From an uncultured Clostridia bacterium (GTDB taxonomy: Bacteria > Bacillota > Clostridia > Christensenellales > UBA1242): DNA of 35,362 nt. Below, piece by piece: positions 270 through 29,783 of this stretch (positions are counted from its first letter, which is position 1; each line of letters begins with the position of its first letter). The position numbers and the translations under genes are program-made. The notes beneath the pieces are model-generated. The model was not told where the DNA came from, searched no databases, and worked only from the letters and a program-made list of their open reading frames with translations. Location of the stretch: positions 1-35,362 of the forward strand of contig CALVJT010000050.1 of the NCBI GenBank assembly GCA_944332315.1, read 5' to 3'.

Positions 270-734
270 TTAATTATCGTAGTAATCGTCATCCAGCAAT
301 TCGGAATTTTCGTTTGCACTTTGCTGTTGTGCGCCCTGCTCTTTTAGCAGTTTGTTTTGTAGTTTGCGTAGCCTTTTTGCGTAGTCATCTATAGTATCAT
401 TTAGTGCATCGATGGCTAAAAATATTGAGTACATTCTTTCTTGCGGGATATCGTCAAACATATTTAGCACTCTTGCCTCATTTAGTTCCTCCGCCTCGAT
501 AATTGGCATACCTATTATCATTTGCGCTGTGGCATCTGCTACTGCAATTACTACTGGGGAGCCGAAAGCTTTGAACTTGGCTTCACAAATCACGGCATCC
601 TCGTTGACATTTATATAAAATTTAATCATTTCGTTGGTATTAGGGTCTTGCGCGGAACCCACACCATTTGCGCCCCTTATTATGCCGGCGTATTTGGGGC
701 TAATAAATCTTTCCATAATATCTTTGTTATACAT
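270..734 (-). CDS. IscU/NifU-like scaffold homologue lacking cluster cysteines
   Basis: The fold family is that of the Fe-S scaffold IscU/NifU, which builds clusters with sulfur from the partner desulfurase. The N-terminus (YNKDIMERFISPKYAG), the KFYINVN-to-AKFKAFG stretch and the C-terminal LAIDALNDTIDDY align with IscU. All three usual cysteine ligands are absent: the CGD position falls in a QDPNTNE stretch, FGC has become FGS (Ser59), and HCS has become MYS. The only cysteine is Cys50, not a ligand position. A Gln/Asp/Glu-rich tail follows residue ~120. The ATG at 734 is preferred over a TTG at 740 because it is correctly spaced from GGAG; it overlaps the end of nifS by 8 bases, so translation is probably coupled. 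It cannot hold a cluster in the normal way; a regulatory or desulfurase-binding role is inferred. Confidence 0.8.
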   Translation of the reverse strand: MYNKDIMERFISPKYAGIIRGANGVGSAQDPNTNEMIKFYINVNEDAVICEAKFKAFGSPVVIAVADATAQMIIGMPIIEAEELNEARVLNMFDDIPQERMYSIFLAIDALNDTIDDYAKRLRKLQNKLLKEQGAQQQSANENSELLDDDYYDN

Positions 735-1914
735 TATCAAATTCTCCTATACTAGCTTTTGTTAAAGGCGATATTGCGCGCAATTTTTTAACAATCACCT
801 CTAATTTTTCTACAACAAAGTCTATATCCTCTTTAGTAATGCTCTTTGAAATTGTAATGCGGATAGTGCCAGCGGCAAGCTCTGGGCTCAATTTTATTGC
901 TTTTAGCACATGTGATGGCTCTACTGCGCCTGTGCTACAAGCCGAACCCACTGATACGGCTATGCCTTCTAGGTCTAGCATCATCATAAGCGCTTCGGCC
1001 TCCACCATACCAAACGATAGGCAGATGCTGTTTGGCAGGCGCTGGAATTTGTGGCCGTTTAGTTTTACATAAGGTATAGTTTCCATAACCTTATCTACAA
1101 AATAATCTCGCATCCTGCGCAACTTTTGGCTGTTGATTATGATATCGCGACACGCTATTTCGCACGCTTTGCCCAAGCCAACTGCCCCTGGGACATTTAC
1201 TGTGCCACCGCGCAAACCGCGCTCCTGATGTCCGCCAAAAATAATTGGGCTTATGTTTACATTGTTTGCTATGTACAGGGCGCCTATGCCTTTTGGCCCA
1301 TTAATTTTGTGCCCCGAAAGCGTGAGCATATCTATGCCCATTTCCTTTACATTTATATTTACTGCGCCAATGGCTTGCGTTGCATCGGTATGGAAAATTA
1401 CCCCCCTTTCCTTAACCGTTTGCGCAATGGCTTTGATATTTTGTATGGTACCAATTTCGTTATTAGCGGACATTATGGAAACCATTAAGGTATCGTTATT
1501 TAAGTTGTGCAAAAGCTCGGCTATACTAACAAGGCCTTCGCTATCTACGGGCAGGTAGGTTACTTTATACCCCATAGATTCCAGTTGTTTGCAAGTTTCA
1601 AGCACGGATGGATGCTCGATTTGCGAGGTTATGATGTGCTTTTTATCGCTATTTTTATAAAAATTTGCAATGCCCAATAGCGCCCAGTTGTTCGATTCGG
1701 TGGCGCCACTTGTAAAATAAATTTCGTTGGGCTTTGCGCCTATTGCGTTTGCAATTCTTTCTCGCGCAGTATCTAGGGCATCATTTGCTTCGCGCCCAAA
1801 GGAGTGCAAAGATGATGAATTGCCGTACATATTGGTAAAGTATGGCATCATTTCGTTGAGAACTTCGCTAGAAACAAAGGTGCTAGCTGCGCTATCTAGA
1901 TAAATTCTATTCAT
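727..1914 (-). CDS. nifS: cysteine desulfurase, NifS/IscS class
   Basis: PLP-dependent enzyme that takes sulfur from cysteine as a persulfide for Fe-S clusters and thiolated cofactors. Visible: the class-V aminotransferase core, His101 in SQIEHPSV, PLP lysine Lys203 in SGHKINGPKG, the FGGHQERGLRGGTVN segment, and the catalytic loop SVGSACSTGA with Cys326. At 395 residues it has the usual length. It is first in a two-gene operon with the IscU-like gene, which overlaps its stop. A good promoter and AGGAGA site precede the ATG. The catalytic residues look intact, in contrast to the degenerate partner, so sulfur delivery is probably still its job. NifS and IscS cannot be told apart from sequence alone. 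Confidence 0.95.
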   Translation of the reverse strand: MNRIYLDSAASTFVSSEVLNEMMPYFTNMYGNSSSLHSFGREANDALDTARERIANAIGAKPNEIYFTSGATESNNWALLGIANFYKNSDKKHIITSQIEHPSVLETCKQLESMGYKVTYLPVDSEGLVSIAELLHNLNNDTLMVSIMSANNEIGTIQNIKAIAQTVKERGVIFHTDATQAIGAVNINVKEMGIDMLTLSGHKINGPKGIGALYIANNVNISPIIFGGHQERGLRGGTVNVPGAVGLGKACEIACRDIIINSQKLRRMRDYFVDKVMETIPYVKLNGHKFQRLPNSICLSFGMVEAEALMMMLDLEGIAVSVGSACSTGAVEPSHVLKAIKLSPELAAGTIRITISKSITKEDIDFVVEKLEVIVKKLRAISPLTKASIGEFDNV

Positions 1915-2021: not shown

Positions 2022-3611
2022 TTACATCAATTTTTGAAACACTTTTGCCGCCGCCACGGCATCGTCCAGTGCGCGGTGCGCCGAAACAAGCTCGATGCCT
2101 AGGTGCGTTACCACGGTTTTTAGTTTGTAGTTTGGCAAGCCCTTTACCTTTTGCCTTGCTAGCAACAAGGTATCTACTTGCTCGTTATCAAAATTAAAGA
2201 GTATTGAGCGCCCGTATTTTTCTAGGAATTTTGCATCAAACTCTATGTTGTATGCCGAAAGCACGCATCCACGCGTAAATTTATAAAAATCTGCCAAAAC
2301 TAGTTCGTAGGATGGCGCGTTTGCTACCATCTCCTCGGTTATGTGCGTGAGTGCGGTGATTTCCTCTGGAATTGGCACAGGTGGCTTTACCAAAGTTTCG
2401 AAAGTTTCGGTTAGTTTGCCGTTGTGTATTTTTACGGCGCCCAATTCTAGTATGTACGAATCATCTACATTTAATCCTGTGGTTTCAAAGTCAAACACCA
2501 CTACATCGTGCGTTTGCAGATATTCCGATACAATCTCGGGCTCGGTATCTAGCAATGTCAACTGCGAAACTTCGATATACTCCTCGGGTTGCACAACTAG
2601 GTATTCATCAAATGGTTTGCGCCATTGAGTGTTATCTTGCGGTTTTTCGTTTAGTTTTACGCGGGCTATGGCGCTTATCTTAAACGAAAAGTTGCCGTTA
2701 TAACTTTCGTAATCGCCCATAATGGCAAGTTGGTCGCCCTCTTTTAGCTGTTGCACTGCTTCCATCGTGTTCTGGTTAGGAAAGTACACGCATCGCATTT
2801 TGCCCCAATAATCCTCTAGCATCAGCGAATACAGCACTCGCTCTTTGGTTTCGTCCTTTTTATCGGGATATCGCCTTTCGTTAAAGAACTTTAGCGTGCC
2901 GGCTATGATGTTTTTTTCGCTGGCGGTTTTTAGTTGGTCTAGGCGGATGGCATAATTTTCGGGTATCTCCCCCACCACGCTATCTAGAAGTTCAAAGCCG
3001 TAGTACTTATCCTCCTCGGGTATAGAAACATCGCGCAAGTAGTTTAGTTCCGTTTGCCTATTGTCGTTTATTTTTAGCACGGTGTTTAGGTCGGCTTCCT
3101 GCAAGGTTGGGTCCAAGGTTATAGATATATTGGCGCAAATTTTATCTTGCAGGTAGTCTATTAAATTATATAAAACATTGTTTTGTTCGAACACATCATA
3201 AAGCGATTTTGGAATTGTTAAGGTGATATTGTAGCAATTGTAATTTTCGTTTTGCTTGTTTTCTATTTGGTCGGGCTCTATTTGTTTTACCGAAATGTTT
3301 TCCTTTTTTATAAAGCTATCCACAAATTTTAGGTGCTCCTCAAAATAGCTTTGCAGAACATCCCATACAACTTCGGTATCCACATAACTTTTTTGGTATT
3401 TTATTGTGATATCGTATTTATTATCTACAAATTCTTTGGCAAGCGCCAAAACTTTATCTTTTTCCTCATCCGTCATTGAGCCAAATTTATCAGGAAAAAG
3501 CAAGTGCAATTCCACTTTTTTTATTTTTCTATCTTTAGGGTATAGGGCTTGTTTTATTTTAAGTTGCCCCAGTTTTTCATCTCTTGCTTTCAAAAAATCA
3601 ATAAAATTCAT
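2022..3611 (-). CDS. PolC-derived 3'-5' exonuclease, no polymerase domain
   Basis: The first ~370 residues match the start of Gram-positive PolC: the N-terminal domain, then an OB-fold region (about 225-330, SEKNIIAGTLKFFNERRYPD onward). The DEDDh exonuclease follows at once: DFETTGL (Asp374, Glu376), NIEFD near 455, and HRALDDA at the end (His512, Asp517). The protein stops there at 529 residues, whereas PolC is about 1,400. PHP, palm, fingers and DNA-binding parts are absent, and nothing downstream before nifS restores them. The PHP half that normally comes before the exonuclease is also gone, so this is a clean domain arrangement rather than a simple frameshift. RBS AAAGGAT precedes the ATG; it starts 21 bases after rseP. 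Inferred: a free proofreading subunit or a half of a split PolC. Confidence 0.85.
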   Translation of the reverse strand: MNFIDFLKARDEKLGQLKIKQALYPKDRKIKKVELHLLFPDKFGSMTDEEKDKVLALAKEFVDNKYDITIKYQKSYVDTEVVWDVLQSYFEEHLKFVDSFIKKENISVKQIEPDQIENKQNENYNCYNITLTIPKSLYDVFEQNNVLYNLIDYLQDKICANISITLDPTLQEADLNTVLKINDNRQTELNYLRDVSIPEEDKYYGFELLDSVVGEIPENYAIRLDQLKTASEKNIIAGTLKFFNERRYPDKKDETKERVLYSLMLEDYWGKMRCVYFPNQNTMEAVQQLKEGDQLAIMGDYESYNGNFSFKISAIARVKLNEKPQDNTQWRKPFDEYLVVQPEEYIEVSQLTLLDTEPEIVSEYLQTHDVVVFDFETTGLNVDDSYILELGAVKIHNGKLTETFETLVKPPVPIPEEITALTHITEEMVANAPSYELVLADFYKFTRGCVLSAYNIEFDAKFLEKYGRSILFNFDNEQVDTLLLARQKVKGLPNYKLKTVVTHLGIELVSAHRALDDAVAAAKVFQKLM

Positions 3612-3632: not shown

Positions 3633-4691
3633 TCAAATTAAAAAATGTATTAAGTCTATAAGTACTACAAACACCAGCAGTACTATCAAGCCCCAAAAGT
3701 GTATGTACCCCTCTATTCTACGATTTATCGGTTTACCGCGTATCCACTCTATTGTTGTAAACACCATTCGCGCGCCATCTAGCGATGGAATTGGCAAGAT
3801 GTTGAACACCGCCAAGTTTACTGCTATAAACGGCAAAAATACAAACAAGTTGGCTATAGATTCCTCGGAGTACGATGCTATGGTTGTTATAGTGCTTATT
3901 GGCCCTGTTACGCCCGATAGTGATACTTGCCCTGTTATTAGCATAAACAGAAAATATATCACCTGCCAAGCCATTTCCAAAGTGACGGGCACTGCCCGCG
4001 CCATGGCTGTCCAGAGGCTTTGCGGGGTTGGAGCCACAGATATGCCAAGATTAAAGTATGTAGTGCCATCCTGCTCCACTGTTTCAATATTAAGGTAGGT
4101 TTGTATTTCCTGCCCATCGCGCTCGACCAATATTGGCACGCTTTGGCTATCTATATTTTCGGTTAATAAGGCATTAAAAGTATCCCCACCATAAAAATCT
4201 ATTTCTACGCCGTCAACTTGTGTAATGACATCGCCAACCTGCAAATGCGCGTTTATTCCGTTTGCATCAATTTCTGTTACCTTTGGGATATCGTAGCCAA
4301 ACGATACGAGCAGTATTATTGTAAATAAAATTGCCGATATAAAGTTAAATAGTACGCCCGAAAATTGCACTATCAGCCTTTGCCAAGGTGGCTTGGAATT
4401 AAAATCGCCTTCCTTTGTTTCGGCGCTATCCTCGCCGGCAAAAGCGCAGTATCCGCCTAACGGCAGTATTCGAATTGAAAAGACTTCGCCATTCTTTTTA
4501 GTTTTTTTATAGATTGCTTTGCCAAAGCCTATGCTAAATTCATCTATTTTGAACTTAAAAATTTTGCCAGCGGTATAGTGGCCAAGTTCATGGATTGTAA
4601 TCATTAATAGGAGTACGCACACCGCAAGCAATATGTAGCCTATATAGGTGAGAATATCCACAAATGATGTTGCTACCAGTTGAGTTAACAT
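3633..4691 (-). CDS. rseP: site-2 zinc metalloprotease RseP/RasP
   Basis: Membrane-embedded M50 protease that cuts substrates such as anti-sigma factors and signal-peptide remnants inside the membrane. The zinc motif ITIHELGHY (His34, Glu35, His38) lies in the first membrane segment; a PDZ-like region follows (about 165-230, HLQVGDVITQVDGVEI), and NILPIPSLDGARM gives the third zinc ligand region. 352 residues, several membrane spans. The ATG at 4691 is chosen for its AAGGAGG site. An upstream in-frame ATG at 4769 would add 26 residues, but those codons lie in repeat-derived DNA. It sits directly upstream of the PolC-like gene, as in Bacillota, though dxr and proS are missing on either side. 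Confidence 0.93.
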   Translation of the reverse strand: MLTQLVATSFVDILTYIGYILLAVCVLLLMITIHELGHYTAGKIFKFKIDEFSIGFGKAIYKKTKKNGEVFSIRILPLGGYCAFAGEDSAETKEGDFNSKPPWQRLIVQFSGVLFNFISAILFTIILLVSFGYDIPKVTEIDANGINAHLQVGDVITQVDGVEIDFYGGDTFNALLTENIDSQSVPILVERDGQEIQTYLNIETVEQDGTTYFNLGISVAPTPQSLWTAMARAVPVTLEMAWQVIYFLFMLITGQVSLSGVTGPISTITTIASYSEESIANLFVFLPFIAVNLAVFNILPIPSLDGARMVFTTIEWIRGKPINRRIEGYIHFWGLIVLLVFVVLIDLIHFLI

Positions 4692-4733
4692 ACTCCTCCT
4701 TAAGATTAAAATAGGTTTTTTATTAATGTAGGT

Positions 4734-4780
4734 ACTAACTTTTGCTAAGTTTTTTATACTCCCCCACAAATAATATTAAA
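4734..4780 (-). repeat. partial MITE-like repeat upstream of rseP
   Basis: On minus this reads like the left half of the ~100-bp family (AATATTATTTGTGGGGG, then CTTAGCAAAAGTTAG). It supplies a spurious in-frame start codon for rseP. Confidence 0.5.
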
Positions 4781-12636: not shown

Positions 12637-14490
12637 TTATTTTTCTGGTGCAGGTCTAGCGGTTCTATCGAACTGTTTAGACATAAATTCTTTATTAATC
12701 TCGCTAGTTGGTTTACCTTTAATTTCATGCTCTTCGGCAGTTGGAGTGTTGATGCTCAAGCTTGGCATACTTCTGAGTTCCTCGACCAATTCCTCTTTTG
12801 TAAATGTACCGTTGCCTGTCATTTCCTCAATCACTTTGATTATTTCCACTGTAGAACTTGGGCTAGTTTCATCGGTTTTGATGTAGTAGGTGCGGTGCAA
12901 CTCGAACATCTCTTTTAAGAATGCGCTGTGCATTTGTTTTTGGCTTTCCTCTAGTTCTTTTTCGCTCGTAACTTTGGTACTTAGGCCCGTGTTTACAGAA
13001 TAGGTGTTAAAACCTTCCTTTTTCCATGAGGTGATGCGGAAGCCACTACAATTTTTATTCTTGAAGTTTTCGGCGCCAAAGCTTTCGAGGTTACGCGTAT
13101 AGACATATGCTTTTTGCAAATCGTCAAATTCTTTATAGATAGATACATTTGGGCTATCCAAATCTAATTGCACATAGTATTTTGAATTTACGACAGTGCC
13201 ATCAATACTTTCCTTATCCAAATAGCGTTCGGCATTAGAAACAGATTTGTTAAAATCGGAGTAGGCATCTGCAATATTTTTCATTCTATCGGCATACTCT
13301 GGTTTTTCTTTTACTTCCTTATAGAACCCCTCGTAGTCACCCAAAGATACGCCTTTACGCACTGGCAAAGGCATTTTTTCGACGCTCTCATTTTGCAATT
13401 TATCTAAATATTTTTCCTTTGTCATTAAAGGTGAGCGGACAAAGCGAGGTTGCAGACTTTCCATAACATCCTTTTTAGGGTTATAGGCAACAAGTTCATC
13501 CTCGGTGTTGGCTGAACCAATACTTTCGGCAACTAGCCTTAGCCTTGCAAAGATGTTCATATCGCCGGTAGACCTTTCGACATATGCTGGCATACCGGTA
13601 GCCTCTGGGCTATCGTAAGAACTTTCGTACTCGTGCATAAAGTGCTTTGCATAAAATCTTTTTAGCGCCCCTTTAGATGCTCCGTAGGCATAGATACCTG
13701 TTCTACCTACAGCGCCAATACCCAAAGCGGTTGCTCCTGCCACCTTTTTAGCCCCGCGCACAGTTTTTTTCCTTGCACTGCGGTATGCCATATTATCCTT
13801 AAAATCTTGCACACTGGTGCCAACTTTACCCTCGATATTATGATAATCTACATAATCCTCGTGCAGTTCGTCATAAACTCTGCGGTATTTTTCGAACTTT
13901 TTCATACGGTGGTCGTATATTCTTGAGCCTGGGGCAGTAAAACGGCCTAAGCCAGTTTTAGCCTCTGCTTCGGCATACACTGCATCATCGGCATTAAGTT
14001 CGTGCTTTTCCACATCATATGTGGCATAAAGTTTTGCAGCAAGACGCTTAGTTTTTGTTGCGTACATATCGTGCACACGATTAAACTTTGCTAAGTTTTT
14101 ATCGCGCTTTTTGGTTAGGCTAGCGTATTTTCTATCGGAATAATCTTTATCCTCTAGTTTAGCTTGAATTTTTGCTGCTTTTTGTACACTGCGCTCTGCT
14201 TTATAGAGTTTATTATCTTTTCTTAACAAAGCGTACTGTGCGGCAAGCGGAACACTTGTTAAAACCGCGCCACTCACTAGTGTGGTACTTACGGATAGTA
14301 GCGTAAAGTATGTAGGTGCAGCAATCAACGGCCCTATTGCTGGCACTAGCATTGCTAGAGCACCACCTACGCCTGCTACGGCGCCCACTGTTATGTAGGA
14401 AGCTGTTCTCTTTTTAAGTGATAAATCGTTGCGTGCTGCTCTAAAATAATCTTTGTTTTCTCTTTCCACTATATAAGTTCTTAAATTCAT
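12637..14490 (-). CDS. unrecognised 617-residue membrane-anchored protein
   Basis: I do not recognise a family. The N-terminus is basic (about 1-30), then two adjacent hydrophobic segments (about 32-58 and 60-86, rich in Gly/Ala/Val). A long charged region rich in Lys, Arg, Tyr and Ala follows (about 90-245), likely helical or coiled. A short Gly/Ala segment (KKVAGATALGIGAVGRTGIY, ~250-270) could touch a membrane. The rest is soluble and mixed, ending in a Pro/Lys/Glu-rich tail. There are no obvious catalytic motifs, cysteine clusters or nucleotide-binding loops. RBS AAAGGGG and a near-consensus promoter suggest strong expression. Single-gene unit with its own terminator. A cytoplasmic scaffold tied to the membrane is one possibility only. 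Confidence 0.85.
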   Translation of the reverse strand: MNLRTYIVERENKDYFRAARNDLSLKKRTASYITVGAVAGVGGALAMLVPAIGPLIAAPTYFTLLSVSTTLVSGAVLTSVPLAAQYALLRKDNKLYKAERSVQKAAKIQAKLEDKDYSDRKYASLTKKRDKNLAKFNRVHDMYATKTKRLAAKLYATYDVEKHELNADDAVYAEAEAKTGLGRFTAPGSRIYDHRMKKFEKYRRVYDELHEDYVDYHNIEGKVGTSVQDFKDNMAYRSARKKTVRGAKKVAGATALGIGAVGRTGIYAYGASKGALKRFYAKHFMHEYESSYDSPEATGMPAYVERSTGDMNIFARLRLVAESIGSANTEDELVAYNPKKDVMESLQPRFVRSPLMTKEKYLDKLQNESVEKMPLPVRKGVSLGDYEGFYKEVKEKPEYADRMKNIADAYSDFNKSVSNAERYLDKESIDGTVVNSKYYVQLDLDSPNVSIYKEFDDLQKAYVYTRNLESFGAENFKNKNCSGFRITSWKKEGFNTYSVNTGLSTKVTSEKELEESQKQMHSAFLKEMFELHRTYYIKTDETSPSSTVEIIKVIEEMTGNGTFTKEELVEELRSMPSLSINTPTAEEHEIKGKPTSEINKEFMSKQFDRTARPAPEK

Positions 14491-23937: not shown

Positions 23938-26637
23938 CTATTTGCGGACATTGCTGAATATTTCCTGCACTGTGCGCAGAGGTGAAATTTTTAGTGTGGT
24001 ACGCGCAAGCGGACCAGAGATAAAGAAGCATTCACCTATATTTGCAGTTACTATACTATCTTGCTCATCCTCATTAATCTCGCCGGCGTTCCTATACAAT
24101 GCAACAAGGTCGGAGATATCGTTAGGTGCAAGGCTAAATATCATAGAATACTGCGATGCGTTGATAACTGCGGTTGATTGACGCGCAATTTCGGGCGAGC
24201 CGACAAAGTCCTTTATGTTTTGCGTGATGATGATTTGCATACCACCGTACTTTCTAATTCTCTTTGCCATTTGCGCCATAAAGTCTAGCGCCATAGGATA
24301 TTTAGGGTTAATAAATGTATGCGCCTCGTCGACTGCAATTACTATTTTACGGTTGCTATCGTTTAGAGTGTTGAAATCTTTGTTACGGATAATCTCGTTT
24401 TCTAGGTACTTAAACACCAGCAACATTTGTGCGTTTGTTGTTATGGTGTTTCGGTTAGAAATGAGTGATAGGAACGAGAATGTTACAAAGTTTTCGGCTG
24501 TTTCGATAGATGTTGGGCCGTTCCACAGTTTACTATTACGCCCACCGGTTGCGAATTTTTTTACATAGTTTTCGATTATTTGCAAGTTGTGCTTTTGATA
24601 CTCATCAGTTTCGGTATCTATCCTTTCTAGCACAAGTTTATAAAGGTCATCGAAAATAGGAAAATCCTCGGGCTTTAGTTTGGAAACATCCGTGCGCATT
24701 GTAATGCCCTTTGTTGCGTAGGTATCGGCAACAAGCGAGTTTAGCAACTCAAAGGCATCGCTTGGCATACCCTCCATAATTATACGGAAAAATTGCTCCA
24801 AAAATTGTAGGTGCAAGGCGTAGGAATCACCTTCGGCACGCTTCTTTTCGGCGCGCTGAGCCATTTCCTCCTCGGTCAAATCCTCGTACTTATCGCCATA
24901 TTCATCCTCATCCTCCTCTAGTGAGGCGTTGATATGGAATGGGTTTAGTATACCCGAACGACTGGAGCCGACATCAATAAGCTTACCTTTTAGATTTTTA
25001 ACCAAAGGTGCGTACTCATCCTCGGGGTCGAGGATAAATATACGCGCGTTATCGGCCGCAAGATTTGTCAAGAGCGTTTTAGTTGCAAATGACTTACCCG
25101 AACCTGACTTACCTACAACCATAACATTACTGTTTACGCGGACACTATCGCGCTTATAAAAATCTACAAACACTGGCAAGGAATTGTAGCCTAGGTAGAA
25201 CCCGCCCTCGTCCTGAAGTGCGTTGCTGATGAATGGGAACATACCTGCAATAGATGCAGTTTGAATACCACGCATTGCATCTTTTACATTATCTATTCTT
25301 GAGATATTGTTGCTGACAAATTCATCCACTTGCCTACCAAACATTTCGTTGTACTTAAAGCCGTTTTGTTTTAGTAGGGCTCTAACTTCCTTTTTAGCAT
25401 TTTCCTCGCAGACGATATGGATATTTACATTATATAAATCCTCGTTAGCGTTTTTGATATCGGTTAAAAGTTGGTGCAGTGTTTCGATATGCGTTTGATA
25501 TTCAATTTGCTTTGAACTACGCAAGGAGTACTGCGATTGCGATTCCATTTCGATAAGGGCACGGTCGATTTGCTTTTCGGCTTGGAACCTTGGTATTGGT
25601 TTTATGTTTACAACCACTTTTGTTCTATCTAGGTTAAAGAACGGATAACCCCAACCGTTTTCAACCGTGATAGGATAATCGGTTATAACAAAACTGCGAT
25701 ATTCGGTGCCATCGATTTTAGTTTTAGCCATTTTGAACTCGACAACATCGGGTGTAGCCCACTGTACTTGTTCTGCCAAAGGCACTACATCCACATCGCG
25801 CTGGTCAAAATCTTTACCGTAGTTAGCTTTTAGGAATACGGCAAGTTCCTCCTCCTGTAGCAAATGGCTAGACATTGGCGTTGCGCTTTGCCTTAGGCTT
25901 GACATCATACCATCTACTGTGATATCAAGCTGTTCTCTATCTTTATCGTAAACAACTAAATAGTAGGCATCCTTAAAAATTCTATCCGCAGTGTTAATGG
26001 TGCGCAGATAATCTAGGCGCGCTTCGAAAATTTCTGAGCGCACTTCGACTTCCTCGGCGGACATTTCGCCCTCGCTTTGCAGTTCCATAAGGCTATCGTA
26101 CTTGCGTTCCTCGGATTGCATATACCTATCAAACACCATTGCTTTGTTAATTTTTACAATGCTTGCTTGCTGGCTTTGTTGCAGACGCTTGAGCGCATCC
26201 CCTACGGTATTTATTAGCATATTTTGCTTATAATCGTTAAGCATAAAGAACTCTACGGGCTCAATTTCGATTACTTGCGCAAAATACTCGCGCTGATAGC
26301 TTATAAAGCGCCCTTCTACTATGGCATCGTACGGGATGAGTTCCGACATAGGCGTATGCTTTTTTTGCATATGTTTGCTATACTTTTTCTTGAAAGCCAA
26401 AAAGCGGAACAGCAAGCCTATACTTACATATAGGCGCACGCCATCTGCAACTGGTATCCAAAAACTGATGCACACTGCAAGCCACGCGACTGCTATATAC
26501 CAATTATATGGCAGGTTGCTTTGCGCAAACAAAATGAACCCTGCTATTGCTATTACTGCCAAAATAAGGTCACCGAGCGTCACGTTCTTAAAGAACTGCA
26601 TCTTTACTTTGGTTTTTCTTGGAATAAATCTTTGCAT
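23938..26637 (-). CDS. PrgI-like/VirB4 fusion, type IV secretion ATPase
   Basis: VirB4-family ATPases power assembly and transport in conjugation and type IV secretion. A basic start is followed by two membrane segments (about 22-40 and 45-78), like PrgI proteins encoded before virB4 in Gram-positive elements; here they are fused. A VirB4 N-terminal domain follows (about 95-480), then the motor domain: Walker A GKSGSGKSFATK near 509-520, DPEDEYAPLVKNLKG, Walker B IAVDEAHTFINP near 768, and IIITQNIKDFVGSPEIARQS. An acidic insert (EEDEDEYGDKYEDLTEEE) near 575 is unusual. 899 residues. It begins 29 bases after the Ig-like surface protein gene, so the two form an operon. No relaxase, VirD4, VirB6 or cell-wall hydrolase lies in the window. 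Confidence 0.9.
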   Translation of the reverse strand: MQRFIPRKTKVKMQFFKNVTLGDLILAVIAIAGFILFAQSNLPYNWYIAVAWLAVCISFWIPVADGVRLYVSIGLLFRFLAFKKKYSKHMQKKHTPMSELIPYDAIVEGRFISYQREYFAQVIEIEPVEFFMLNDYKQNMLINTVGDALKRLQQSQQASIVKINKAMVFDRYMQSEERKYDSLMELQSEGEMSAEEVEVRSEIFEARLDYLRTINTADRIFKDAYYLVVYDKDREQLDITVDGMMSSLRQSATPMSSHLLQEEELAVFLKANYGKDFDQRDVDVVPLAEQVQWATPDVVEFKMAKTKIDGTEYRSFVITDYPITVENGWGYPFFNLDRTKVVVNIKPIPRFQAEKQIDRALIEMESQSQYSLRSSKQIEYQTHIETLHQLLTDIKNANEDLYNVNIHIVCEENAKKEVRALLKQNGFKYNEMFGRQVDEFVSNNISRIDNVKDAMRGIQTASIAGMFPFISNALQDEGGFYLGYNSLPVFVDFYKRDSVRVNSNVMVVGKSGSGKSFATKTLLTNLAADNARIFILDPEDEYAPLVKNLKGKLIDVGSSRSGILNPFHINASLEEDEDEYGDKYEDLTEEEMAQRAEKKRAEGDSYALHLQFLEQFFRIIMEGMPSDAFELLNSLVADTYATKGITMRTDVSKLKPEDFPIFDDLYKLVLERIDTETDEYQKHNLQIIENYVKKFATGGRNSKLWNGPTSIETAENFVTFSFLSLISNRNTITTNAQMLLVFKYLENEIIRNKDFNTLNDSNRKIVIAVDEAHTFINPKYPMALDFMAQMAKRIRKYGGMQIIITQNIKDFVGSPEIARQSTAVINASQYSMIFSLAPNDISDLVALYRNAGEINEDEQDSIVTANIGECFFISGPLARTTLKISPLRTVQEIFSNVRK

Positions 26638-26666: not shown

Positions 26667-29600
26667 TTAGATAAAGTTGATTATATATTGTTGCCTTATA
26701 TTTAAGCCATCGCTGGTTGTGAGCACAACATTTATATGTGCCTCGACAGTATCAAGCGGTTGCCCCGAGAATGTTAAAACTTGCACTCCGTTGCTTTCGG
26801 TTAAACGCACTTGATTTGCAGATTCGCTTGCAACCTCGTAGCTTAAAAATGCAGAGGTATTTGATACATTTATATCTGAACCTGTAGAACTTGCGTTTCT
26901 AAATACCAATGAGAACAGAGAATTTTCTCGCAAATTATAGCCTCCGCCCTGCGCATCGATATTTAGCGAATCTACTGATGCGGTGGTTGAATACTCGCCA
27001 TCATCGTTAGCCTTCCACTGTATGCTGTTGCTTGCAACGCTTGTTAAATTACCTTTAATGCAAATTCTATCTGTGATAGGATTTGTGGCGTTTTGATAGG
27101 TTGCGGTTAGCACGATGTACGCCTCTTGGTCTAGTTCGTGAATTTGAATTCTATATACATTTTGGTTATCGACTGTAGCAGAAATTACGCTTGCTACATT
27201 CGACCTTGCGCCCTGTGCATCCACTACGCTATAGTTATAGGATGTATTTGATATTGTAAGAGCAGTTGGTAGCAAGTAGTCCTCGCCTTCCACCAAATCT
27301 TGTAGCACTTGCACTGTGCCCGCTTCAAATGTAGGTTGAAGCAACAAAATTTCGGTTAACACGCCAGAGGTGCTGACTGTGCCCCAATTTGATGTTATTC
27401 CTGTTACTTCGTTTACGCCATTTTGCATTTCGTAGGTGTAGTTGAGTTGTCCAGCAATTTCGTAGTAATCGATGTCATTTACTGTATCGGTAGGCGCTGT
27501 GTTTACATTTAGGCTTATGCTTTCTATAGGCACCTCGATTATATATAGGTGCAAGGTAAACACAGTTTCGTACCCATCACTAGATACATTAAAGTTGCCG
27601 GTGTAGTACTCTATTCTTATGTCTCTAGAGATGTACTCGCTTATATTGTAGGTATGGACATCCAAATTCAAATAGTAGTTTTGGGCATTATTGCCTAGGT
27701 CCTGCTCCTCTAAAGTTGCGCTAACTGTATCGGTATCGTTATTCACCACTCTTAGCCAAGTGCCACTTTCGGAACTGTTGTTGAACGCATCGAACAGCGC
27801 TCCGCTAGAGTTTGCAAACAGTGAAATTTGATGCCTTGATACACTGCTTACTGCTAGTATTTTAGAGTTTGTACCGTTTTGTGTGCTACCTATTAGCTCG
27901 GTTTGCCCTGTGCTTTCGATATTTATATAAGTTTCGAGGTTAGTCATTTGCTCGGTCACTCTAAATGTGACTTCATCACTGCTAGCAATAGCCACAAATG
28001 TTGGCACATTGGTGGTTATAACATCGCCGTTTTCATCTAACACATTGCCCGAACTATCAAAGCGCATAACATCGCCGTTTTGGTCTATAGGGTTGCCGTG
28101 CATATCGGTTTTTACAACATAGGCGCGTAGCAGAATGTTTCCGCGGGCAAGCGCTTGCACCACGCTTGGGTCACGCAGATTTAGTCCGCGTCCGCGTACC
28201 TCTCTGCCAAAGCCCGAAAAATAGGTGGAGCCCAATTGTATTATTTCCTCGCCCTGCTCGTTTGTATATCTACCCTCGGAGTACTGCGAGTTGTTGTGAT
28301 AGGTGCCTTTTGCAAACACTTTTACCAAAAAGTACGAGGTTTGATTGCCACCATCGGTGGCTACAATTTCGACATTTTCAGTCCAATCCCAAGTATTGTT
28401 TACCGAAGTTATAACATCACCGTTTTTGGTTATGCTCATCTCTACCAAATCGTTGTGCGACATATTAGGGTTTGTTTTGCTTGTGCCTTCAAACTCTAAG
28501 CTCTCGATATCGTTGCGCAGTATCAAAAAGTTATTTAGTTCGGCGGATACATTAGGGTATGATGCCAATGTTACATACACCACAAGCCCTTGCATTGGCT
28601 CCTGCTCTACTGTAAACTCCCACTCGTTTGTATCGTAGTTTTTACTGATTATTAAGCCTTTAGAATCTGTTGTAAGGACGATTTGATTAAGTAGATTTGC
28701 AAAATATTCGTCATTGCCGTTGGAGGCGCTCATTGTTATTCCTAGTTCCTCGGCAGTAAATGAAGTGGTTTGGAATAGTGGCAACTCGATTGAGCGATTA
28801 TCTACATCGATAGCATCAAGCGTTATTTCCTCTACCTTAATTACAAAACTTTTGGTTATGTAGCGCCCTTGCAAAAGCTCTGGCGGAATGTAGCCTATAT
28901 CATCCCACTCTGGTATGCCTGATTGGTAGTTATTGATAAAATCGATATCGTCATAAGTGCGCAGGCACCTTGCGTACACAGTAACTTCGCCAGGATTTTG
29001 CGCAACAATTTCTCCAGTTTGAGAAATACTTATAACATTACTAGGGGAAGTTGCATCTAAATAATACTCCACTACTTTAGAGTTGCGCCTAAAATTATTA
29101 AATTCAGATTTTTGGTCTATATGGCTAGGGTCTTGTGAATTCGTAGGCAAAAACTGCGTGCTAATGTGTCCAATTTCATCCTCGTACAGCATAAATTTAG
29201 AAACTTCGTTTTCAACCACGGTTGACATATCGCTACTAGTTATTGCAAGGTCGGTTACAGGTATATCCACAAACACTACAAGCGGTCTGGACATATAAAG
29301 CCCTTCATCGTTCTGCACATTTATATAGCAGTACCCGCCCCTATTTACTCCATTATCATCTTTAGTGACAATTATTTGGATAGGTTCGCCGATATTGCCC
29401 TCTGATTGCACAGTGGCAACACTTGGGTCGGATGAAGTTAGGTAGATTTTTGTTTCGGTGACTGGATTTTCATCGATAACATTGCCATCCTCATCGGTAA
29501 TTGGGGTTGTGCTACCGCGCACTACAAAAGTGGAATCTACCGCAATATTGGGGTTATCACTTTCGTAAATGCCGTTTATGCGCAAAACTGGATAGCCGTT

Positions 29601-29783
29601 TATAATTTCGATATTTTCATTTTCGTTTACATCGTCTATATATAAATCCTCGGCATAGACAGTTTTGGGTGTGTAGTACCCTAGGGCAAAAGCCATTATT
29701 ATTGATATCCATATAATTGCTATTGCTGCACAAAAGCAGTATGCAACAACTGTCATTGCACTTAGTAATGTTGACTTTTTCAT
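26667..29783 (-). CDS. large anchored surface protein with BIG2/Ig-like domains
   Basis: 1,038 residues. The N-terminus has a short basic start and one hydrophobic segment (about 8-36), a signal anchor that would leave the rest outside. The remainder is Ser/Thr/Asn/Val-rich beta-sheet sequence. Bacterial Ig-like (BIG2) signatures are visible: SSDPSVATVQSEGNIG near 113-128 and ISISQTGEIVAQNPGEVTVY near 250; weaker repeats continue to the end. There is no LPXTG sorting signal or C-terminal membrane span. It is the first gene of the operon with the VirB4-type ATPase, under a strong promoter. An adhesion or envelope-spanning role alongside the ATPase is inferred; no precise family is recognised. 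Confidence 0.88.
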   Translation of the reverse strand: MKKSTLLSAMTVVAYCFCAAIAIIWISIIMAFALGYYTPKTVYAEDLYIDDVNENENIEIINGYPVLRINGIYESDNPNIAVDSTFVVRGSTTPITDEDGNVIDENPVTETKIYLTSSDPSVATVQSEGNIGEPIQIIVTKDDNGVNRGGYCYINVQNDEGLYMSRPLVVFVDIPVTDLAITSSDMSTVVENEVSKFMLYEDEIGHISTQFLPTNSQDPSHIDQKSEFNNFRRNSKVVEYYLDATSPSNVISISQTGEIVAQNPGEVTVYARCLRTYDDIDFINNYQSGIPEWDDIGYIPPELLQGRYITKSFVIKVEEITLDAIDVDNRSIELPLFQTTSFTAEELGITMSASNGNDEYFANLLNQIVLTTDSKGLIISKNYDTNEWEFTVEQEPMQGLVVYVTLASYPNVSAELNNFLILRNDIESLEFEGTSKTNPNMSHNDLVEMSITKNGDVITSVNNTWDWTENVEIVATDGGNQTSYFLVKVFAKGTYHNNSQYSEGRYTNEQGEEIIQLGSTYFSGFGREVRGRGLNLRDPSVVQALARGNILLRAYVVKTDMHGNPIDQNGDVMRFDSSGNVLDENGDVITTNVPTFVAIASSDEVTFRVTEQMTNLETYINIESTGQTELIGSTQNGTNSKILAVSSVSRHQISLFANSSGALFDAFNNSSESGTWLRVVNNDTDTVSATLEEQDLGNNAQNYYLNLDVHTYNISEYISRDIRIEYYTGNFNVSSDGYETVFTLHLYIIEVPIESISLNVNTAPTDTVNDIDYYEIAGQLNYTYEMQNGVNEVTGITSNWGTVSTSGVLTEILLLQPTFEAGTVQVLQDLVEGEDYLLPTALTISNTSYNYSVVDAQGARSNVASVISATVDNQNVYRIQIHELDQEAYIVLTATYQNATNPITDRICIKGNLTSVASNSIQWKANDDGEYSTTASVDSLNIDAQGGGYNLRENSLFSLVFRNASSTGSDINVSNTSAFLSYEVASESANQVRLTESNGVQVLTFSGQPLDTVEAHINVVLTTSDGLNIRQQYIINFI

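Follow-up and report, generated by a model that had tools for sequence, protein, structure and literature searches.

A polymerase-less PolC protein with an intact exonuclease, a candidate partner of DnaE in an order of gut Clostridia

What is left of a replicative polymerase gene when the polymerase itself is gone, and what might the remainder do? The question is raised by the gene at the polC position in the window, the whole 35,362-nucleotide stretch of DNA from an uncultured Clostridia bacterium that was analysed here. The original prediction had been that this gene ends after an intact DEDDh exonuclease and lacks the PHP, palm and finger domains, and this was confirmed: none of the three is found by Pfam in the 529-aa open reading frame, whose product we call PolCx (Table 1). 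The PolC polymerase core of palm and fingers is absent both from this frame and from the genome outside DnaE. The arrangement of a PHP domain with an inserted exonuclease is not encountered in PolCx, where a linker precedes the exonuclease and nothing follows it.

Table 1. Features of the polymerase-less PolC gene and its upstream neighbour in the window
Feature	Position	Strand	Basis or remarks
Polymerase-less PolC gene (PolCx)	2022..3611	minus	529 aa; ATG start at the 3611 end, stop codon 2022-2024
N-terminal region, residues 1-198, two KH-like units	3018..3611	minus	homologous to the PolC N-terminal domain (hhalign)
OB fold, residues 199-320	2652..3017	minus	Pfam PF01336 and structure match to 9qpc
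Linker, residues 321-366, replacing the first part of the PHP domain	2514..2651	minus	alignment and model
Putative beta-clamp-binding motif QLTLL, residues 350-354	2550..2564	minus	conservation among homologues
DEDDh 3'-5' exonuclease domain, residues 367-529 (protein end)	2025..2513	minus	RNase_T (PF00929) 5e-37 over residues 371-525; D374, E376, D459, H512, D517; PDB 2p1j, 8h2f, 9qrn, 2gui
rseP (M50 protease), next gene upstream of the polC position	3633..4769	minus	PF02163

The descent of PolCx from PolC is evident in each of its parts, to differing degrees. An AlphaFold2 model based on 61 homologues has a mean pLDDT of 90, and its best Foldseek match is the PolC of E. faecium (9qpc), over model residues 209-529; this whole-model search carries little information on the N-terminal region. 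That the family N-terminal region is kept, as originally predicted, is true, yet the relationship is remote: the Pfam PolC N-terminal model NII matches only one of 61 homologues (E 0.001), and residues 12-171 align with the PolC N-terminal alignment with an hhalign probability of 96.4 (E 1.3e-9). The AlphaFold2 model of this region (pLDDT 89.6) has a NusA2 structure as its best fold match, a weak one (E 8.6e-4); a search with this region alone gave only weak matches of KH type, and none of the 50 matches listed was a PolC or a tau domain V structure. The title of a reference in PMC3919608 and the legend of a figure in PMC12926913 suggest a relationship of the PolC N-terminal pair to tau domain V, and the domain is not resolved in recent PolC cryo-EM structures, according to the available part of PMC12592400. 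The OB fold was recognized as tRNA_anti-codon at residues 260-315 with a score below the gathering threshold (E 2e-4), and was detected by Pfam in 48 of the 61 homologues.

Within the window's genus the exonuclease is the best preserved part. Its nearest family by sequence is PolC (NF001688, 152 bits, where the cut-off for a whole PolC is 873), and its nearest solved relative by sequence is the Thermotoga PolC exonuclease 2p1j. The retention of Asp374, Glu376, His512 and Asp517 that had been read from the sequence was borne out, with D459 as the fifth catalytic residue. All 65 aligned homologues have D374, E376 and D459, and 64 have H512 and D517, the single gap belonging to a protein truncated by a contig end. 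The final helix of the exonuclease occupies residues 514-528 of the model, and there the protein stops. Within the window's genus, amino acid change in the exonuclease is approximately nine times slower than in the N-terminal part (dN 0.019 versus 0.166, window versus locus L010); dN alone is quoted, dN/dS being uninformative with synonymous sites saturated in all comparisons with the window. Twelve of the 13 invariant columns in a 61-row alignment lie within the exonuclease, the exception being G238. One homologue, locus L096 of genome G077, has an exonuclease without the first catalytic residues, its D.E motif having been replaced.

Between the OB fold and the exonuclease, PolC has the first part of its PHP domain (KRVELHLHT...), whereas PolCx has a linker of approximately 45 residues. 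The join after the OB fold had been described as clean, but there is more to it than that: the PHP stretch ahead of the exonuclease (~80-100 residues) has been lost, and a linker with a conserved motif stands in its place. The linker follows the pattern Y-x-x-[VI]-x-P ... Q-x-x-L-F with variable intervening residues, and is almost devoid of secondary structure in the model (residues 321-362). Among 65 homologues Y337 is conserved in 61, P342 in 63 and Q350 in 64, and position 354 is occupied by F in 52 and by L in 11; the variants in the window's genus are QLTLL, QMTLL, QMSLL, QLSLL and QTSLL. The strict form Q..[LIM]F was found in 51 of 69 linkers but in only 7 (0.14%) of 5184 length-matched control windows taken from the same proteins, and a relaxed form in 63 of 69 as against 343 of 5184. 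In these counts L065 and L096, which lack 'ETTG', were scored as misses, and L035 is truncated by a contig end. The motif was found before or within the first PHP part in none of 49 intact PolCs, and in the last 25 residues of 36 of 50. Q-x-x-L-F is a known form of the beta-clamp-binding motif, and we infer that in PolCx it is a putative docking tag. The DnaE proteins of these genomes carry Q-x-[SDT]-[LMI]-F in 54 of 59 cases. In E. coli, according to the available text of PMC4703070, epsilon and alpha each occupy one clamp pocket through such motifs so that both pockets are filled, QLSLPL (epsilon) and QLDLF (alpha) having been used there as strengthened versions.

The original prediction offered two partners for a free-standing exonuclease, a DnaE-type polymerase and a separately encoded C-terminal half of PolC, and the genome (a 1.33 Mb assembly in 77 contigs, 98% complete) was searched for both. 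One palm and one finger match were found genome-wide, and both belong to the DnaE frame of 1452 aa on contig C70; of three PHP matches, one lies in this frame and the others in two shorter ones (559 and 271 aa). No PolC half was found, and DnaE is the single C-family polymerase in the genome of the window. The genome is therefore in the DnaE-only state, with one DnaE-type polymerase and no PolC polymerase. A separately encoded PolC half is refuted as the partner both here and in the relatives that carry the polymerase-less form: it occurs in 19 of 99 genomes, and the two forms occur together in none. RNase_T was found in PolCx and in one other match, and since the latter is weak and partial (E 1.7e-5, positions 75-163 of 164), PolCx is the main DnaQ-fold exonuclease of the genome. 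The PHP site of DnaE, HHDHEHCDH, is complete in 59 of 59 genomes, with or without an exonuclease form. The genome's own DnaE (L002 654-1400, contig C70) has an N-terminal extension of approximately 240 residues before the PHP domain, partly rich in T, Q, A and N, and the DnaE frames of the same genus are likewise long (1311 and 1346 aa). The G+C content of 0.45-0.52 over most of the dnaE gene, against 0.28-0.47 in the window, raised the possibility that contig C70 is contamination; this was rejected because the DnaE pairs with that of the same-genus genome G002 at short branches.

PolCx is not peculiar to one genome. The polymerase-less form, about 500-550 aa, is encoded by 70 of 99 genomes with the window's own included, 52 of the 59 from the window's family and 18 of the 40 from the order's other families; it was read in detail for 69 of the 70, the locus of G094 being left out. 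Neither form is present in five genomes, G043, G047 (77% complete), and the order members G074, G087 and G096. Another five (G048, G006, G017, G009 and G046, loci L074-L078, all of family f1) encode at the polC locus only N-terminal and OB proteins of 214-338 aa, lacking the linker motif and the exonuclease; they form one clade in the DnaE tree (100), and RNase_T was not found in four of them and gave only a weak match in G006. Among the matches listed from a class sample of 391 genomes, those covering most of the model in frames of 500-600 aa (15) came from the same order only, and the others were exonuclease-only, nearly all in frames of at least 1300 aa. In a phylum sample of 299 genomes at a threshold of 1e-80, the window's own genome was the only match. 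Among the named loci with the polymerase-less form are one in a metagenome-assembled genome called Candidatus Coproplasma stercoripullorum (L133) and a large number from uncultured Clostridia, and the Q-x-x-L-F motif is visible in most of them. A number of the Clostridia carrying the form are from animal guts, judging by isolate names.

Intact PolC and the polymerase-less form share the neighborhood rseP-[ispG]-polC-rimP-nusA in the examples that were checked. Both come after rseP, directly or across a gap of ~1 kb, the gap gene being ispG (GcpE) in L048 with the polymerase-less form and in L079 with intact PolC; rimP and nusA lie downstream of the polymerase-less form in L040, L045 and L058 (Pfam) and of intact PolC in L079 (read by eye). 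In the window, IscU-like and NifS-like genes (270-1914, minus strand) follow polC in place of the rimP and nusA of the f1 loci L040, L045 and L058; a NifS gene is near in all five loci of the window's genus (L009-L013), and these neighbors are a local rearrangement. Elsewhere in the window, all on the minus strand, are a gene for a VirB4-like conjugation ATPase (23938-26637) closest to the Mbov_0397 family of ICE conjugal transfer ATPases, an adjoining 1038-aa open reading frame with no Pfam match (26667-29783), the two probably being part of a conjugative element, and a 617-aa open reading frame with no Pfam match (12637-14490).

In a protein tree, 65 polymerase-less and 27 intact PolC rows are split by one branch (SH-aLRT 100), so that a single change is needed. 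The tree, which leaves out L017, L028, L069, L080, L096 and 22 of 49 intact PolCs (mostly from Lachnospiraceae), is unrooted, and one origin therefore means one side of one branch. In a DnaE tree of 59 genomes (59 of 61 proteins, without G074 and G084, DnaE having been taken from 60 relatives), 14 PolC genomes and one with neither form make up one side of a branch supported at 100. One split followed by vertical descent would be the simplest reading of these trees. G096 falls within the PolC side of the DnaE tree, and PolC was therefore lost more than once.

We propose a hypothetical model in which PolCx, a 3'-5' exonuclease of PolC origin, sits next to DnaE on the clamp in an epsilon-like role, a reading that we consider somewhat probable. 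The polC gene of some ancestral member of this order of gut Clostridia would have lost both PHP parts, the palm, the fingers and the tail. What remained, a protein of N-terminal region, OB fold and exonuclease with a clamp-binding motif between the latter two, would have stayed at its old locus. Of the two pockets of the dimeric beta clamp, Q-x-x-L-F may dock in one and the QxSLF of DnaE in the other; the exonuclease could then remove misincorporated 3' ends made by DnaE, which would make it a PolC-derived counterpart of E. coli epsilon, and the KH-like and OB parts may provide another point of attachment, to the replisome or to single-stranded DNA. The components of this model differ in standing. 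The free-standing exonuclease is well supported, by its occurrence in 70 of the 99 genomes, its single protein clade, its intact catalytic residues and its slow change. DnaE as the partner polymerase is supported by exclusion, and to that extent the originally predicted proofreader acting in trans stands; clamp binding, the sharing of the clamp with DnaE and proofreading in trans itself are what we infer from sequence. Several observations count against an epsilon-like proofreader. E. coli epsilon holds on to DnaE with a C-terminal tail that PolCx does not have; the complete PHP site of DnaE means that the cells may already have a proofreader; and the loss of catalytic residues in L096 does not suit a simple proofreader story. 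The five genomes with only N-terminal and OB proteins, together with the five with neither form, indicate that the exonuclease is not indispensable and that the N-terminal part serves a separate function.

The most probable alternative is a clamp-bound repair nuclease behind the fork. Its task would be to trim 3' ends during mismatch repair, gap repair or Okazaki processing, and proofreading would fall to the PHP domain of DnaE. Clamp motifs are frequent in repair proteins, so the motif in PolCx would equally suit such a nuclease and in this respect weighs against a proofreader; the PHP site that is intact whether or not an exonuclease is encoded, and the loss of the exonuclease in some lineages, point in the same direction. 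We nevertheless find this reading unlikely, though by no means negligible, given the descent of PolCx from the replicative polymerase's own proofreader, retained at its locus, and a sequence that has no tie to repair partners. It is improbable, to a greater degree, that the main retained function lies in the N-terminal and OB parts, as a replisome adaptor or single-strand binder with the exonuclease a losable passenger: the f1 clade that keeps just these parts is what such a function would lead one to expect, but within the window's genus no other part is as conserved as the exonuclease, which also holds nearly all of the invariant columns.

The two remaining readings carry very little weight. 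The fold matches of the exonuclease domain include RNase T chains, which would be in keeping with a DEDDh exonuclease that processes RNA as RNase T does, yet the nearest sequences are PolC exonucleases, an OB fold and a PolC N-terminal region are attached, and the clamp motif is present, so we regard this as very improbable. Decay, misassembly or frameshift of an ordinary polC has hardly any probability left. A full polC elsewhere in the genome was sought and not found, nor is there a PolC half; intact polC does exist at the same locus in relatives, as decay might predict, but all of these relatives belong to other families within the order. The recurrence of the architecture in 70 of 99 genomes, a single clade with a long internal history, and an exonuclease conserved while synonymous change is saturated in effect refute it.

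The clamp-tethered partner of DnaE that we favor has partial parallels in known systems. PolC itself (NF001688/TIGR01405; B. subtilis, E. faecium 9qpc) shares with PolCx the KH-like pair, the OB fold, the DEDDh exonuclease and the gene neighborhood; PolCx lacks the PHP domain, palm, fingers and C-terminal tail, comprises about 505-548 aa instead of about 1400, and carries its clamp-type motif between the OB fold and the exonuclease rather than at the C-terminus. E. coli DnaQ/epsilon is likewise a separate DEDDh exonuclease with a clamp-type motif beside the catalytic domain, in a cell where DnaE is the only C-family polymerase. The motif of PolCx is however N-terminal of the catalytic domain, that of epsilon C-terminal (available text of PMC4703070), and PolCx has a large KH-like/OB front, PolC descent and no C-terminal tail or helix for binding the DnaE PHP domain. 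In the PolC without exonuclease that the accessible part of Timinskas 2013 (PMC3919608) places almost exclusively in Clostridia and Negativicutes, exonuclease and polymerase have also parted, but through the reverse loss. The exonuclease-DnaE1 fusion of Bacteroidetes, described in the same part of that source, brings a DnaQ-type proofreader to DnaE1 by another route, in one chain and with no PolC parts.

We found no description of such polymerase-less PolC proteins in the literature searched, and the available portions of PMC3919608 and PMC12926913 contain no mention of them. As far as those portions go, the 2013 survey demanded an intact polymerase core and reported that some Clostridia have a single DnaE1; a 2026 survey (PMC12926913) gives three proofreaders for Clostridia in PolC plus DnaE1 systems, and catalogues polymerases, separate exonucleases being assigned only if they are close to known DnaQ or on the strength of complex models. 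With such criteria, a remnant of the PolCx kind would by our reasoning be passed over.

The order offers a natural experiment, in which intact PolC, the polymerase-less form, an exonuclease-less form and full loss are found side by side. It addresses the question of how bacteria move between two-polymerase (PolC plus DnaE) and one-polymerase systems, and bears on the source of proofreading in a DnaE-only clostridial replisome and on the role of the PolC N-terminal region, which here survives without any polymerase. It is possible, and we put this forward tentatively, that the N-terminal, OB and exonuclease parts of PolC acquired a clamp tag and, in many families of the order, took over as the permanent proofreader of the DnaE replisome, an epsilon reached by a non-DnaQ route, with one offshoot having dropped the exonuclease and kept the KH-like/OB part as a replisome adaptor. 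The loss of the PolC polymerase half and the retention of a DNA-trimming protein in a large group of uncultured gut bacteria suggests a proofreader carved from an old polymerase.
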